Origin: an uncultured Eubacteriales bacterium
GTDB taxonomy: Bacteria; Bacillota; Clostridia; Oscillospirales; Acutalibacteraceae
Direction: 5' to 3'
Assembly (NCBI GenBank): GCA_900315605.1
Contig: OMZU01000034.1
Location: 1-51,924 of the forward strand
DNA length: 51,924 nt
Shown: positions 33,458 through 40,114 of the stretch, in pieces
How positions within the stretch are numbered: the first letter of the stretch is position 1
How the letters are laid out: each line of letters begins with the position of its first letter
The notes under the pieces: generated by a model
The model's input: only the letters and a program-made list of their open reading frames with translations
Told to the model about the DNA's origin: nothing
The model's database searches: none
Program-made: the position numbers and the translations under genes

Positions 33458-33483
33458 GTAAAATAAATTCAGGAGTGATCAAT

Positions 33484-36384
33484 TTGAAAAGAATCTTATG
33501 CGCAATCCTCGCGGGCGTGATCGTATCCACGTCCGCAGTTTCCGTCAGCGCGGCACAGCTGCCTGCAACGGAAATAACTTCATCAGTAGGCACATACTCA
33601 GCTCCGATCTCGGACGAAAACACGGAAAGAATGCTTCTTTCAAACTATCTTCAGCAAACCATTCAGCAGCAGTATCCCGGCTCGCGTTACGACATCAAAA
33701 AAATGTTTCGCTATGATTTGGCGAACAAGTACGCAACAGAGCTTCTTGAATCCGACGCTTCCGCACAAGAGCTTCACATGGCAAGGCTCATGCTGAAAAA
33801 CGCCTTTGAGGGTCTTGAAGGCTTTAAGGGCGACCTTAACGCTCTGGGAAATATCAAGGATCAGTACGAAGAGTTTATTCAGCGCGACAGCATCAAAAAC
33901 AAAAGCAACTACGAGGAATATGAGACTCTGGAAACCGATATTTACGCAACCTATTATTTTCCCGAATCAGAGGATTATATTGAAGAACTTATTTATCACA
34001 TCACCGATGTTATGAATGGTGAAGCTGAGCCGCTGGATTTTTATGAACAACAGCGCAGCAACCTTAGATCGCTTATCAACTATATAAGCGACGAGTATGA
34101 TCCAACCTGCAACTGCACCGCCGAAAGCAGCGCGAACTTTTCAACCGCTTTTACCATGGCATGTGAGCGAGTTGGCCAGCCCAACCCCACACCGGGTGAA
34201 AGCTATTATTACGGCTCGGCATACTACTTCTATTTAGCAAATTACGCGCTTTCTGTTGCGTTTGACGAGCTTGAACCATCATTCAGCAACGGTTGCCTCG
34301 GCTCCCTGCTGACGCAGCTTCAAAATTATATAAACACACTCTCGGCTCAGGGCAGCAGCGAAAAGCTTTCCGACGCAAGACAGGTTTATTCCTATGCTCA
34401 AAACATCTATAATAACTCAAAAAGTATTCTTCTGACAAACGAGGCTGAGGGCGAGATCAGCAAGGTGCTCTCCGGATCCGAGCTGACTATACAGGAAGCA
34501 AAAGCCGAATTGCAGGAAGCACTTGACTATGTTGATGATAATTTGCCGATCGGCGGAGCTTGGACTACGGCTTCGTTCAACAGATTTTCCGAAGCAAAGT
34601 CGGCTGCAAGCTCTCTTCTTAGTGACAGCAATGCCACCGTGTCTGAGCTTGTTGAAGCAAAAGACGAGCTGCTCGATTCCTTTAACTCTCTTGAAACGTT
34701 CGGCGGCGACAAAGAGACCCTGTGGAATCTGTTGGAGGAGCTGTCTGCCTACATAAACTCAATCGAAAGCTCAGACCCCGACAGCTGCGAGCGTTACAGA
34801 GTCCTTTATAATCATGTGCTTCCGGATTACTATTACGCAGGCGACCAGGAAACGATCGATTACTGGGCGGCGCGTCTGCAAAGAGTTCTTAATCAGGGCG
34901 AGGAGCCGCTCAAGGATCACGATGCTTTGAGACAGCAGCTTATTCAGAAAATCGACGAATGCAACCAGGCTATCAAGGATCGCGGCAAAAACTACACAAA
35001 CGACTCCTGGGACAACTACAAAAATGCGGTAAGATGGGCAAATATGGATATTGAAAATATCCTCAGCAAGATGGATCAGCTGTCCGGAGATATCAACAGT
35101 GTTCAGGCGGCGTTCGACGCGCTTGTTGTAAAGTCCACCGACAGGACCTTCCTCAAAGCCCTGATGAACGACCTTCTTGCCGAAAGAAAAAATGAAACCA
35201 AGGGAAGCGCGAAATACAAGGAGCTGACAGACCTTTATAACGAAGCTAACAATGTATATAAAAACGAACACTCTCAAAAAGAATTTGACGAGATGTCTCA
35301 GAGGATCGACGACTATCACGGAATCACCCGCGAGGACGCCAAGAACATGCTCCAGCAGTCATACGACTATGTTATGAGCAACTGGCCGTCGGAGGAGAAC
35401 GGTCCCTACACCGAGTCATCCATGAACAACCTCATCAAATACAAGGAATCGGCGGAACGTCAGCTCAAAAGCACGACCACCACTCAGATAGCAATGCGCA
35501 AAACTCAGTTCAGACTTATGAACGCATTCAGAAATATCCAGATCGTGGTAGGCGACAAAACCCAGCTCAGAGAGCTTACAAATCAGCTCTACGATTACAA
35601 GGAATTTGAGCCTGTAAAAACCGGCAGCAGATACGGCTCTCTCAGCAGTCTTTATGAAGAAGCCGAGACCGTGCTTGCAAACGCAAGATTGCAGGAGGAT
35701 ATCGATGCAATGACCGCCAGAGTAAGCGAAGCGATCACCCCGACCCACGAGCTCGGAAGTATTGAGATCGCAGAAGCCTTGGACTACGTTGACAGATTTT
35801 ATCCCGTGGGCAGCTGCTTTACAACAGAATCTCTTGACAGACTCTCAAATGCAAAATACGCCGCTCAGCACATTGGCAGCAACGCCACCGGTGAGGAATG
35901 CCGCGAAATCAGAGACGAGCTTATCGCCGCTTTCAATGGACTTACCGTGTTCACAGGCGACAAAGAGCAGCTTTGGGAGCTTATGTGCGAAATCGAAAAC
36001 GAGTTGGATACTCTTGACGAGAACAGTCAAAGATATAAAACTCTTCACGACGCCTACAACCGCGCTCTTCCGGTATACTATTACGCAGGCGACCAGCAGG
36101 AGATCAACGAAATGATTGCCGAGCTTACAGGTATTCTTTACAATACCGGCGCACCGGGACAGAGCAGGATCAAGAGGGGCGACGCAGACGGAGACAACGA
36201 GGTTTCGATCAGCGACGTTACCGAGATCCAGAAACACCTCTGCTCACTCGGCACGCTCAAAGCAAATGGGATCAAAGCTGCCGACGTTGACGGCGACGAA
36301 AGCGTTACGATCCAGGACGCGACCCTGATCCAGTATTACCTTGCCTTTTTAGGCGACGGAAACAGCATCGGCGAATATTTTTAG
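33484..36384 (+). CDS. Large secreted helical-repeat protein with C-terminal dockerin
   Basis: This 966-residue exported protein starts at a TTG at 33484, eight bases after AGGAG; the GTG at 33475 overlaps that site. The signal peptide is MKRILCAILAGVIVSTSAVSVSA. The body is mostly helical with FIVAR-like modules. Two related modules lie near residues 340-470 and 760-885 (ALDYVDDNLPIGGAWTTASF and ALDYVDRFYPVGSCFTTESL; both include VLPDYYYAGDQ-like YYYAGDQ). A degenerate copy lies near 615-755. A type I dockerin spans about 898-953 (GDADGDNEVSISDVTEIQ, ADVDGDESVTIQDATLIQ). No catalytic motif is seen. It likely extends or anchors amylosome components, or binds a glycan; this is inferred. Confidence 0.85.
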   Translation: MKRILCAILAGVIVSTSAVSVSAAQLPATEITSSVGTYSAPISDENTERMLLSNYLQQTIQQQYPGSRYDIKKMFRYDLANKYATELLESDASAQELHMARLMLKNAFEGLEGFKGDLNALGNIKDQYEEFIQRDSIKNKSNYEEYETLETDIYATYYFPESEDYIEELIYHITDVMNGEAEPLDFYEQQRSNLRSLINYISDEYDPTCNCTAESSANFSTAFTMACERVGQPNPTPGESYYYGSAYYFYLANYALSVAFDELEPSFSNGCLGSLLTQLQNYINTLSAQGSSEKLSDARQVYSYAQNIYNNSKSILLTNEAEGEISKVLSGSELTIQEAKAELQEALDYVDDNLPIGGAWTTASFNRFSEAKSAASSLLSDSNATVSELVEAKDELLDSFNSLETFGGDKETLWNLLEELSAYINSIESSDPDSCERYRVLYNHVLPDYYYAGDQETIDYWAARLQRVLNQGEEPLKDHDALRQQLIQKIDECNQAIKDRGKNYTNDSWDNYKNAVRWANMDIENILSKMDQLSGDINSVQAAFDALVVKSTDRTFLKALMNDLLAERKNETKGSAKYKELTDLYNEANNVYKNEHSQKEFDEMSQRIDDYHGITREDAKNMLQQSYDYVMSNWPSEENGPYTESSMNNLIKYKESAERQLKSTTTTQIAMRKTQFRLMNAFRNIQIVVGDKTQLRELTNQLYDYKEFEPVKTGSRYGSLSSLYEEAETVLANARLQEDIDAMTARVSEAITPTHELGSIEIAEALDYVDRFYPVGSCFTTESLDRLSNAKYAAQHIGSNATGEECREIRDELIAAFNGLTVFTGDKEQLWELMCEIENELDTLDENSQRYKTLHDAYNRALPVYYYAGDQQEINEMIAELTGILYNTGAPGQSRIKRGDADGDNEVSISDVTEIQKHLCSLGTLKANGIKAADVDGDESVTIQDATLIQYYLAFLGDGNSIGEYF

Positions 36385-36557: not shown

Positions 36558-39500
36558 TCAACCAACGTAAGCATTCGCCGCATCATTGTACCAGTAAAGT
36601 GCTTTTGCAAGATCTTTCATATCTGCGGTCGCAGCCGAGCTTGCGTTCAAGGCTCTTGCGTAGTCAAGCGCAGAGTAGTAGAACGTTGTGTCGCCCACGG
36701 TGAACTCCTGGAGCTTGTCGAGCTGGTGCGCAGGGATGTTTTCTTTCACCTTGAAGTAATAGGTATCAGCCTGGTTGCCGTCGTAGAGTGACGGTTCAAA
36801 GCTTGAATCCTTCTTTGTAAAGTAATGTCTGAGTGTGCTTCTGTCGAGGAAGATCAAGCTTGTTGTGTAGTAGTTTGCACCGAGCTGAGCCGCTACATCC
36901 TTCATGTTGCTTGCCGAAGCACCGTTGTTTGCGTTCTTAACGGCTGTTACAAACATATCGTCTGTTACGTCACCCATTGTGTAGTCTGTAAGGTTCTTGT
37001 TTGCAAGGTCGGATGTGTTGATATTAAATACCTTTTGAGCTCTTGCACCGTAGTCAACCATTGCCGAAACAAGGTAAGAAAGCTTTTCGTATTCTGTGGG
37101 ATTGTTGTCTCTCAGCTTCGCCATTGACGAGCCTTCTTTCGGAGTGAGAACGCTGTCGGCATAGTCGCGAACGCTGTAGTCCTTGGTCTCTGTTGTGCCG
37201 TTGAGAGTTGCCGTTGCTCTTACCTGGCAGGACATTTCTGCTGCGCATACCGGGCAGCTTACCGGGATCTTGGATCCTACGTTGCTTGAATCAACAGTGA
37301 TCGTCTTGCTGTATTTTGTGATATCAGTTTTCGGCTTGTCGCTTGCATTTGAAAAGTCCTTTGCCCATTCAAAGGTCCTCCGTCAAGGGTCAGAGAGCTG
37401 CCGTTGATAAGCTTTTTGGGGGTAAAGGTCGCTGTGTAGGTAATGTCGCCTGATAAATTGGGAAGTGCGTTAGGCGCATAGGTCGTTTCGCCGTTCTTCC
37501 AGCCTGCAAAGTTGTAGCCGAGCTTTGTCGGGGCTTCATGAGTTGGAACAGCTCCGTCGGCAACTGTTGTTGTGTCGATTGTTGTGCCGTCGTCGTTAAG
37601 CCATGTTACTGTGCGCGGTACGCCCAGAACAAGCTGACCGTCAGCGTTTTTGCCAACTATATAGTCGCTTTTGTCGCTGAAGAATTTTGAAGCGTCGTTG
37701 TTAGATATATCGGTGCTGTTTGTGAACACACCGGGAGTCTGCATGGTCACACCGATAGTCGCATCCGAACCAAGCTCGCCTACATTAACAGCCGCGTTTC
37801 CCGAAAGATATAGATTCCTTGTTGTTCCATTTCTTAATGTATTGCCATATATCTTTGAGTTTCCCGATATATTTACGGTAACGTCGCTTTTTTCAAAGTA
37901 GGTCACACCGGCAACGGTAGACAAGCCTGTGATTTCTCCGCCGTTCATGTTGAAGGTACCGCCGGAGCCTGTGAAACGAATTCCGCAGGCGTCATATCTG
38001 TTAACCGCTCTGCCGGTGAGGGTACCGCCGTTCATTGTAAAGGTAGCGTTAGCAGCAACATCGACAATACCTGCCGTGCTGACATTGCCGTTGATCGTGC
38101 CGCCGTTGAGCACAAACTTACCGCCCTTGACCCAGAACATTGAGCCAACTCGATACACAGCGTCCATTGAGCCGCCGCCCTCTTCGTCATAGATTTCGAG
38201 TGCAGTGCCGCTGACCATTAGAAAATGTTCATAGGTCGTTATTTTATGACCATTCAGACAAATTCTTGTTGTTCCTTCCGGAGCTCTCCATTCACTGTGT
38301 ATAGTTAAATCTTGGGTAAGATAATAGTTGCCGGCGGTCGAGGGCATGCTGTTTGTGCTTGTCCACGGCTCATAGGTGATGCCGTCGTGTATGTGCGTCT
38401 TGGGAGTCGAGTTAAAGGTCGCTGTGTAGGTCACGTCGCCTGTTACCGCGGGAAGCGCGTCCGGCGCATAGGTGGTCTCGCCGTTTTTCCAGCCTGTAAA
38501 GGTGTAGGTGTTCTGCGCGTCCTCGAGTCTTTCCGGAGGAGTTTCGCCGTCATAGGACGGGGTTGCGCCGTACTGGACAGTTGTTGTACCTAATTCGGAA
38601 TTATCGTAATTCAACCATGTGACTGTGTAACCTCTTATGACAAGGTGGATTGTGGATTCCTTTCCGATATTATTCTCGGCAAGAGTTTTTGCGTCCTCGA
38701 GCTGCTTGCCGGCAAAAATCAACCTTTGCGCGGTGGCGGGAATGTCGATTTGATCCGCTATGATTTCCTTTAGCTGAGCAACAGTGGTCTCGCCGGTGAG
38801 ATTTTCTATGGTGTAGGTTTCGCCGGTCAGCTTCTTGGCATATACCTTGAAGGTCTTTGCGGTCACGGTATACTGCGCCGTGTAGGTCACGTTGCCGCTG
38901 ACCGCCGGAAGCTGATCGGGAGCGTAGGTCGTTTCGCCGTTGTTCCAGCCCGAGAAGGTGTAGGTGTAGTTCTCGTCCTCCGCCTTTTCGGGAGTAGTGC
39001 CGTCGTAGGACGGGGTTGAGCCCTCAGCTAACGCTTCGGTTTTGAGTACCTCGTCGCCGTTCTTCCATGTAACGGTGCATGGTTTTTTTGTAACGATCGT
39101 TCCCTGTGTATCGGTGCTTGTCAAGTAGATGTATTTGCCGCTTTGGGAACAGTCGGTATATGTCGTAAACTCTCCGATAGCCAGATTTCCTCCGGCGTAT
39201 GCTGCCTGATTATTCTTGGTATTTTTCAGCTTGAGCGTACCTGCGTTGATTGTGACCTTGCCCGACGCATCAATGCATCGCTGTGTATTCGCGTTGCCTG
39301 CCACATTGATGTCTATGTTACCGCCGTTGATCGTTATTGAACCGCTGTTGAGCGTATTGAGTCCTTTGCAGGTTGAAATAACGTCATTATTGCTGTTGAA
39401 GGTCAATGCTCCCTCACTTACATCGATCTCCAAAGAGCCATCATTGATAACTATAGCGTTAGCCCCGCCGTTGCGCACTAATACGCCTACTGCGAACCAG

Positions 39501-40114
39501 TCCTGACCGCTTCTGGCAAACTCGCCGCATGAAAGCTTTATATCACCGCTGTTGAGTGTAAAGCCGCTGTTCATTTGAAGCGCGTAGGAATGGAAATATG
39601 ATTTCTGAGCGGTGTAATCCAGCACAGGGTTGTCGCTGCCGGTACCGAAAATCAGTTTATAACAGTTGATCGCAAAGGTATCGAAATAATGCGTTGTCGT
39701 GGTCGGCGACATTGTCAGCTTTCCGCTGCCCTTTATTGTAAGAGTGCCTTCCGTTTCAAAAAACTGACCCGACGCGGTCGGCATTATTGTACCTACGCAT
39801 ATGCAAGACCAGCATTTGCGACCGGTTGAGGTAGTATTGTACATACCTCCGTGCATAACGTTATTTGTACCGTCGGTCAGAACGATCGTTGCGGAATCGA
39901 CCTTTAGCCACACACAATCATCAAACGTCGCGCCGGACATGGTGAGGGTTTTAGTTGAAGCATTCCACGTCCAACCGGTGCCGCTTGCGTTTGAATCCGA
40001 TAACGTCAAAACGCTGCCTGCCGCGCTTACCGTGAACGGAACAACGGAGAACACGCTGAAAACCATGATGAAAGTCAACAGTATGCTCACTGATTTTTTT
40101 AATGTTTTTTTCAT
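36558..40114 (-). pseudogene. Secreted beta-helix/InlB-repeat protein with a ubiquitin-like domain, frameshifted
   Basis: GAGGAGGT and an ATG at 40114 open a signal peptide ([20 protein letters not shown]). The first frame gives 945 residues: a beta-helix-like region (35-340), Listeria-Bacteroides repeat domains (near 346-415, 496-570 and 850-915), a ubiquitin-like domain (421-495) and a second beta-helix-like region (600-840). Near 37378-37383 one base appears to be missing (GACGGAGG then ACCTTTGAATGG). The true continuation [16 protein letters not shown] lies in another frame and runs to the stop at 36558. That lost C-terminal module matches the one in the broken gene at 239-1846. The full protein would be about 1,185 residues. 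The truncated form ends with about 30 foreign residues. Sequencing error and real inactivation are both possible. Confidence 0.8.
38630..38854 (-). other. Ubiquitin-like domain within the surface protein
   Basis: Residues 421-495 of the protein from 40114 align end to end with eukaryotic ubiquitin. The run [12 protein letters not shown] is identical to ubiquitin 41-52, and [13 protein letters not shown] matches NIQKESTLHLVLR. The Leu8, Ile44, Val70 patch is kept (Leu429, Ile466, Val492), as are Lys6, Lys27, Lys48 and Lys63 equivalents (427, 449, 470, 485). Lys11, Lys29 and Lys33 are replaced. The C-terminal LRGG tail is absent; the chain runs on into the next repeat (VIRGYTVTW). Confidence 0.9.

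Follow-up and report, generated by a model that had tools for sequence, protein, structure and literature searches.

A ubiquitin domain between InlB-type repeats of an exported-type Clostridia protein: a candidate recognition cassette probably exchanged between species

Ubiquitin is taught as a eukaryotic modifier. Its best described bacterial counterpart is BfUbb of Bacteroides fragilis, which two papers portray as secreted, equipped with a signal sequence and devoid of a terminal Gly-Gly (PMC3352274, PMC5705921); it antagonises bacteria, inhibiting other B. fragilis strains (PMC5705921), and inhibits ubiquitination in vitro (PMC3352274). The mature form is a free protein whose first residue is ubiquitin residue 1, and it shares 63% identity with human ubiquitin. 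A second relative, RUMAL_RS21475, is encoded on plasmid pRUMAL01 of a cultured Ruminococcus, R. albus 7, and is already annotated as 'ubiquitin family protein'; in this secreted-type protein a ubiquitin 88% identical to the human one stands right behind the signal peptide, and no InlB-type repeats were seen in its 246 amino acids (aa). Here, we analyse a contig of an uncultured Eubacteriales bacterium of the family Acutalibacteraceae (OMZU01000034.1, positions 1 to 51,924; the window, i.e. the whole stretch of 51,924 nucleotides), whose minus strand encodes a genuine ubiquitin-family domain at 38633-38851. Like BfUbb, the window protein has a secreted-type signal sequence, judged by eye, and lacks the terminal Gly-Gly. 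Unlike BfUbb, which starts at Met1 and comprises about 76 aa, the window domain is internal (aa 422-494 of 945), is 51% identical to human ubiquitin and is encoded by DNA that is shared across species. It is flanked by repeats that resemble the Listeria InlB B repeat or Flg_new type (PF09479, TIGR02543), from which it differs by the presence of the ubiquitin helix and by scoring as PF00240.

Identity and predicted fold of the domain

In a profile search of the entire 2.42-Mb genome, PF00240 had a single match at E<=0.001; it lies on the minus strand (38633-38836) and scores 72.9 bits, with an E-value of 3.7e-20. Within the 945-aa reading frame (37277-40114, minus strand) hmmscan gave 67.8 bits for aa 427-494, at a cut-off of 25.4. 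The domain and human ubiquitin share 37 of 72 residues (51%); the longest identical run comprises 12 residues (human 41-52), and L8, I44, H68 and V70 are all retained. Chance similarity was ruled out by a shuffling control, in which human ubiquitin scored 58.1 bits against the real window protein and at most 9.0 bits against 1000 shuffled copies. With the 88-aa translation of nucleotides 38612-38875 as query, phmmer matched 369 distinct PDB sequences at E<=0.001, and among the matches listed (60 of the 369) there were ubiquitins, polyubiquitins and engineered derivatives throughout. An earlier sequence-only reading of this DNA had claimed a real ubiquitin domain at 38630-38854 with an identical 12-residue run and the Leu8/Ile44/Val70 patch; all of this was borne out, the alignment edges lying one codon further in on either side. 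Rad23 was rejected as an identity, since TIGR00601 reached 32.0 bits over the ubiquitin part only (cut-off 207.3). The PADLOC models of anti-phage defence proteins (2023) returned no family at E<=0.01 for the window protein or for the N-terminal-ubiquitin proteins L003 and L113. A foreign base composition was also discarded: the GC content at third codon positions of the domain is ordinary for the window gene.

Also in agreement with that reading, the LRGG tail is absent. A conjugatable ubiquitin ends in LRGG at the chain end or at a processing site; here, the chain reads LVIRGYTV, and the conjugation tail is missing because LVIR runs directly into the following repeat.

The fold was predicted for the repeat-ubiquitin-repeat triplet (aa 341-585), with 11 related sequences as input, at a mean predicted local distance difference test score (pLDDT) of 92.4. 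Superposed on the listed single-ubiquitin chains, the modelled middle domain gave root mean square deviations of 0.6-1.2 A over 73-75 columns (0.7 A for 5ydr_A), and its strands and helix follow the ubiquitin order; as predicted, then, the window domain adopts the ubiquitin beta-grasp fold. The model has three consecutive beta domains with nearly no linkers. Linear polyubiquitins were the top-ranked structure matches, yet their whole-chain TM-scores were low (about 0.3 by query), and therefore the domain-to-domain arrangement is unlike that of polyubiquitin. The InlB B repeat has itself been likened to a beta-grasp fold without the helix (PMC8900821), so that ubiquitin stands within a chain of small similar domains.

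Probable exchange of the domain between species

Five of the loci named below bear two handles each, the two being linked by identical reading frames (G149 is L053, G175 is L054, G120 is L055, G142 is L056 and G148 is L060). The ubiquitin domain and roughly 23 aa at the start of the following repeat are encoded by a DNA cassette (38565-38857) that is 96% identical to G149, 94% to G175, 95% to G120 and 80% to G142. The cassette has mosaic ends. In the six pairs formed by the window, L053, L054 and L055 the proportion of synonymous differences (pS) in the ubiquitin codons is only 0.02-0.09 and that of non-synonymous differences (pN) 0.05-0.07, as against a pS of 0.31-0.37 in the downstream repeat of the same pairs and of 0.37-0.43 in the upstream repeat of the three pairs of window, L053 and L054; the other three pairs, those that include L055, lack homology in the upstream segment (pS 0.69-0.79). 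As a yardstick, thrS differs from that of the window genome by a pS of 0.67 in G149 and 0.68 in G120, and over 573 windows of 74 codons its minimum was 0.53 and 0.48, respectively. Since the pS of the ubiquitin codons lies far under that of the flanking repeats and of thrS, the simplest reading of these comparisons suggests a recent exchange of the cassette between species, for which we infer recombination within the flanking repeats as the route. Constraint on synonymous sites was rejected as the cause of the low pS, because L056, which shares mainly the 3' half (pS 0.25 over codons 39-73), has a pS of 0.80 over codons 1-38 of the same domain. A second pair, L057/L058, forms the same kind of island: identity is 0.95-1.00 across the domain, compared with 0.52-0.89 in the windows flanking it. 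The plasmid and phage collections held no match to the cassette. By these DNA comparisons, the nearest kin of the window copy are other gut-type bacteria, that is, other species of the genus. The suggestion that the close match reflects acquisition from a eukaryote therefore fails for the window copy; the older eukaryotic origin of the domain is left unresolved by the domain tree.

After exchange, the copies changed mainly in amino acids. A hand count of the ubiquitin codons of the four exchanged sequences gave 23 variable columns, 3 of them synonymous and 20 non-synonymous, with one in-frame 3-base insertion set aside; the pairwise ratio of non-synonymous to synonymous rates (dN/dS) was 0.63-3.40. 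In three close pairs of N-terminal ubiquitins, by comparison, 10 changes were synonymous and 1 non-synonymous, a pattern that differs from that of the exchanged copies with a Fisher p of 2.1e-5 (pooled, small sample). A further pair with low pS, the neighbouring ubiquitin open reading frames (ORFs) of L072, has 9.2 synonymous and 30.8 non-synonymous changes and was excluded from the 10:1 count. Against L056 the dN/dS is only 0.17-0.19, which argues for constraint on the domain in the longer run. A diversity-generating retroelement was dismissed as the source of the changes, the altered bases, inspected by eye, not being confined to adenine.

Possible roles of the domain

With a probability of about 0.55, we favour the reading that this genuine ubiquitin, within the InlB-type repeat array of an exported-type protein, would serve as an extracellular recognition module that cannot be conjugated and would be carried on a cassette recombining between species. 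It would belong to a large group of ubiquitins secreted by bacteria and would have become inserted among the beta-grasp repeats. Exposed outside the cell, where we infer export and surface display from the architecture, the domain would offer the face L8/I44/H68/V70 to some extracellular partner and would not act as a protein modifier; the domain-sized cassette would recombine between species, probably via the homology of the flanking repeats, and its amino acids would change quickly following each spread. Over 14 embedded domains, identity to human ubiquitin is 0.78 at the Ile44 face, 0.60 in the core and 0.42 on the other surface (permutation p 0.006). The retention of this face points to a binding role; a test of entropy does not.

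Several observations weigh against this reading. Among the embedded domains, variability at the Ile44 face is no lower than on the other surface (entropy permutation p 0.26), the exchanged copy L055 carries R42M and I44V, and the assignment of positions to core, patch and surface is presumed rather than computed. Although 20 of the 23 variable columns are non-synonymous, neutrality was not rejected (p 0.065-0.161); positive selection proper is thus unsupported, and relaxed constraint fits equally well as diversifying selection. A usable thrS yardstick was searched for in G175 and none was found. The embedded copies seen all come from metagenome bins, from records titled as uncultured or from genomes known by handle only, and the window copy itself has a frame break, so that the gene may be damaged.

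Next in rank, and possible, is that ubiquitin is a structural spacer, an additional beta-grasp brick that stabilises a B-repeat rod and has no partner. The likeness of the B repeat to the beta-grasp fold (PMC8900821), the three beta domains that follow each other with hardly any linker and the dN/dS of 0.63-3.40 in the exchanged codons would all agree with it, as would a paralogue of the C-terminal module on contig C86 of the same genome, which lies behind repeat-like segments (by eye) in a genome without a second ubiquitin. However, a mere spacer would need neither an Ile44 face closer to human ubiquitin than the core nor exchange between species as a unit. Ranked third, and unlikely in our view, is a function in interbacterial antagonism as in BfUbb, with the ubiquitin part as a toxin or competitor-binding part directed against neighbouring bacteria. 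The inhibition of other B. fragilis strains by secreted BfUbb (PMC5705921) sets the precedent, exchange between species and changing amino acids would be in keeping with this function, and ubiquitin-fold proteins of genome G275 bear a double-glycine-type leader; yet BfUbb is a free protein of 76 residues, and the window domain sits inside a longer chain without a free start. The least probable of the four is mimicry of the ubiquitin machinery of a host, protist or fungus, as decoy or ligand, of which the sequence-only reading had raised the host version. Many relatives start their mature part with a near-human ubiquitin, identical in up to 75 of 76 residues (L113), the three close N-terminal pairs changed mostly synonymously (10 versus 1) and BfUbb inhibited ubiquitination in vitro (PMC3352274). 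The window copy, on the other hand, is internal and just 51% identical to human ubiquitin, many record titles of the N-terminal kind name no gut source, and the L072 pair misfits strong constraint. The recognition module, at about one half, leads this ranking.

Beyond this locus, the findings suggest that secreted-type ubiquitins are commoner in bacteria than in the previous picture and that, within one group, the domain passes from species to species. It is tempting to speculate, albeit tentatively, that secreted ubiquitin is a recurrent display module of many phyla, placed at the exposed N terminus of proteins on varied anchors such as dockerin, S-layer homology and IPTL-CTERM, and that it has become, in one gut genus of Clostridia, a horizontally traded and fast-changing recognition cassette within arrays of beta-grasp repeats. 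In its logic, such a cassette would resemble an adhesin or toxin tip that can be swapped. If the suggested trade between species is true, it would make the reuse of a eukaryote-type domain in extracellular recognition open to test, with many natural ubiquitin variants and binding faces to compare.

Distribution and protein context

In all PF00240 counts that follow, the window's own genome is included. The profile was found in 7 of 59 relatives, within the genus in 33 of 161 genomes, or 13 of 81 when only those at >=90% completeness and <=5% contamination are counted, in 16 of 300 genomes of a family sample (15 over the cut-off) and in 5 of 398 genomes of a phylum sample; of the latter, 4 were over the cut-off and, besides the own genome, one of four was strong. 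In named genomes of bacteria and archaea, 464 stretches were confirmed; part of these are probably contamination, and the best 80 were retained for closer inspection. That bacterial proteins of this kind are rare, as the sequence-only reading had it, thus holds for the phylum sample, but neither for the genus nor for the named genomes. Most relatives are draft or metagenome assemblies, and gut habitat was read from record titles.

Numerous relatives have near-human ubiquitin immediately behind the signal peptide. By a crude signal-peptide rule, 54 of the 74 distinct domain rows from the 80 kept loci (rows identical to already fetched ones removed) have a hydrophobic stretch and a small-X-small motif directly before Met1. 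The modules that follow vary and include dockerin (L003), S-layer homology with cadherin-like and fn3 domains (L070, Cohnella phaseoli), GLUG (L100), YDG/MBG (L128) and IPTL-CTERM (L064). For the N-terminal kind, a count by eye gave 17 of the 80 kept records with strain names in place of metagenome titles, and several of these contigs are some hundreds of kb long. As for the embedded kind, the relatives do have the order repeat-ubiquitin-repeat: by our reading of the ORFs, eight genomes among the 161 of the genus have repeats on both sides (G000, G012, G142, G148, G149, G153, G166 and G175, the own one included), as do G256 and G366 of genus g97, while G120 has the downstream repeat only; G143, G120:C198 and some fragments were left unclassified. 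Among the best 80 of the 464 stretches this kind was restricted to Clostridia, Clostridiales, Ruminococcus and Oscillospiraceae records and to genomes of the window's family, and no named cultured strain was seen to carry it. An assembly or contamination artefact was rejected for the domain, as the same order recurs with different flanks in metagenome bins from several projects. Among the literature matches listed, from a search that mostly covered sources other than subscription journals, there was no natural ubiquitin-dockerin protein or repeat-embedded ubiquitin.

In the domain tree (128 domains, 76 columns; rows L007, L047 and L140 removed before building), 13 of the 14 embedded rows share a fork (Shimodaira-Hasegawa-like approximate likelihood ratio test 90), with L029 apart; 80 of its 122 inner branches are open, which concerns the older origin. 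The polyubiquitin of L129 (2847-3815, a Nitrospinota metagenome bin) and perhaps also L073, L074 and L103 are probably eukaryotic contamination; they were not used in the argument and were kept in the counts of stretches, human identity, tree and signal rule.

The features of the window gene are collected in Table 1.

Table 1 Features of the ubiquitin-bearing gene in the window
Feature	Position	Strand	Basis or remark
Signal peptide, aa 1-31 (MKKTLKKSV...FTVSA)	40022..40114	-	translation, judged by eye
N-terminal beta-rich region, aa 32-345	39080..40021	-	protein search, genus genomes
InlB/Listeria-Bacteroides-type (Flg_new-like) repeat 1, upstream of ubiquitin	38852..39079	-	alignment, model; no Pfam call of its own
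Exchanged DNA cassette, ubiquitin and about first 23 aa of next repeat, 293 bp	38565..38857	-	DNA comparison
Ubiquitin domain without LRGG tail, aa 422-494 (human residues 1-72)	38633..38851	-	profile, alignment, model
12-residue run identical to human ubiquitin 41-52	38693..38728	-	alignment with human ubiquitin
Flg_new-like repeat 2, directly after ubiquitin	38399..38626	-	alignment, model; no Pfam call of its own
Flg_new repeat 3 (PF09479)	37424..37615	-	31.3 bits in one scan, 25.0 in another; cut-off 27
Reading-frame break, repeat array/C-terminal module	37277..37382	-	ORF comparison
C-terminal module	36558..37235	-	ORF; recurs in other ubiquitin-bearing proteins

Read from the N terminus, the signal peptide is followed by a beta-rich region, repeat 1, ubiquitin, repeat 2, another beta-rich region and repeat 3, after which come the frame break and the C-terminal module. 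The secreted type that had been claimed agrees with the signal-peptide-like N terminus, and the claimed position between two repeats is likely: PF09479 calls repeat 3 alone, and repeats 1 and 2 resemble it, can be aligned across relatives and were modelled as beta domains. TIGR02543 reached 29.1 bits on the protein (cut-off 20.95) in two stretches, the better being repeat 3. Nothing in the other 160 genomes of the genus matched the N-terminal beta-rich region at E<=0.001. For the C-terminal module neither Pfam nor NCBIfam gave anything above cut-off, and a structure search with its model (pLDDT 76.6) likewise gave nothing at E<=0.001. It also occurs in the embedded-ubiquitin proteins L053, L058 and L059, in the N-terminal-ubiquitin proteins L025, L026 and L131 and in ORFs without ubiquitin; this is thus a modular protein in which ubiquitin is optional. 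The paralogue of the C-terminal module on C86 lies downstream of repeat-like segments on which PF09479 is silent, and the genome has no second PF00240 match.

The 945-aa frame ends at 37277, and the C-terminal module lies in a different frame that is open from 37382, unlike in the nearest named record, L053, where module and repeat array are in frame. A frame break just ahead of or within the module is present both in the window gene (37277-37382) and in the paralogue of the same genome (L151, 6118-6320); real damage and an assembly fault between the paralogues cannot be told apart. Next to the window gene, 33475-36384 on the plus strand encodes a secreted-type protein of 969 aa with a C-terminal dockerin (35.3 bits) and weak FIVAR matches below cut-off.

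Some further loci deserve mention. On pRUMAL01 (L145, 7923-8663) the signal peptide with near-human ubiquitin is found within a run of small secreted-type proteins, in the neighbourhood of a PI-PLC-domain ORF and a dockerin ORF. In Pedobacter cryoconitis (L089, 7183-8585) four tandem ORFs each have a signal-peptide-like start and a single ubiquitin. Scanned with protein profiles, viral contigs yielded 9 loci with ubiquitins, some of the secreted type, and two Pseudoalteromonas plasmid matches fall within Ig-like and tandem-95 repeat proteins. In G275:C22 (L148, 10500-12003), four tandem small proteins, three of which match PF00240, have a leader ending in LSEEELELVIGG that is similar to bacteriocin leaders (NF038167, E 0.0014, below cut-off); their neighbours, judged by eye, resemble an HD-type gene and leuS.
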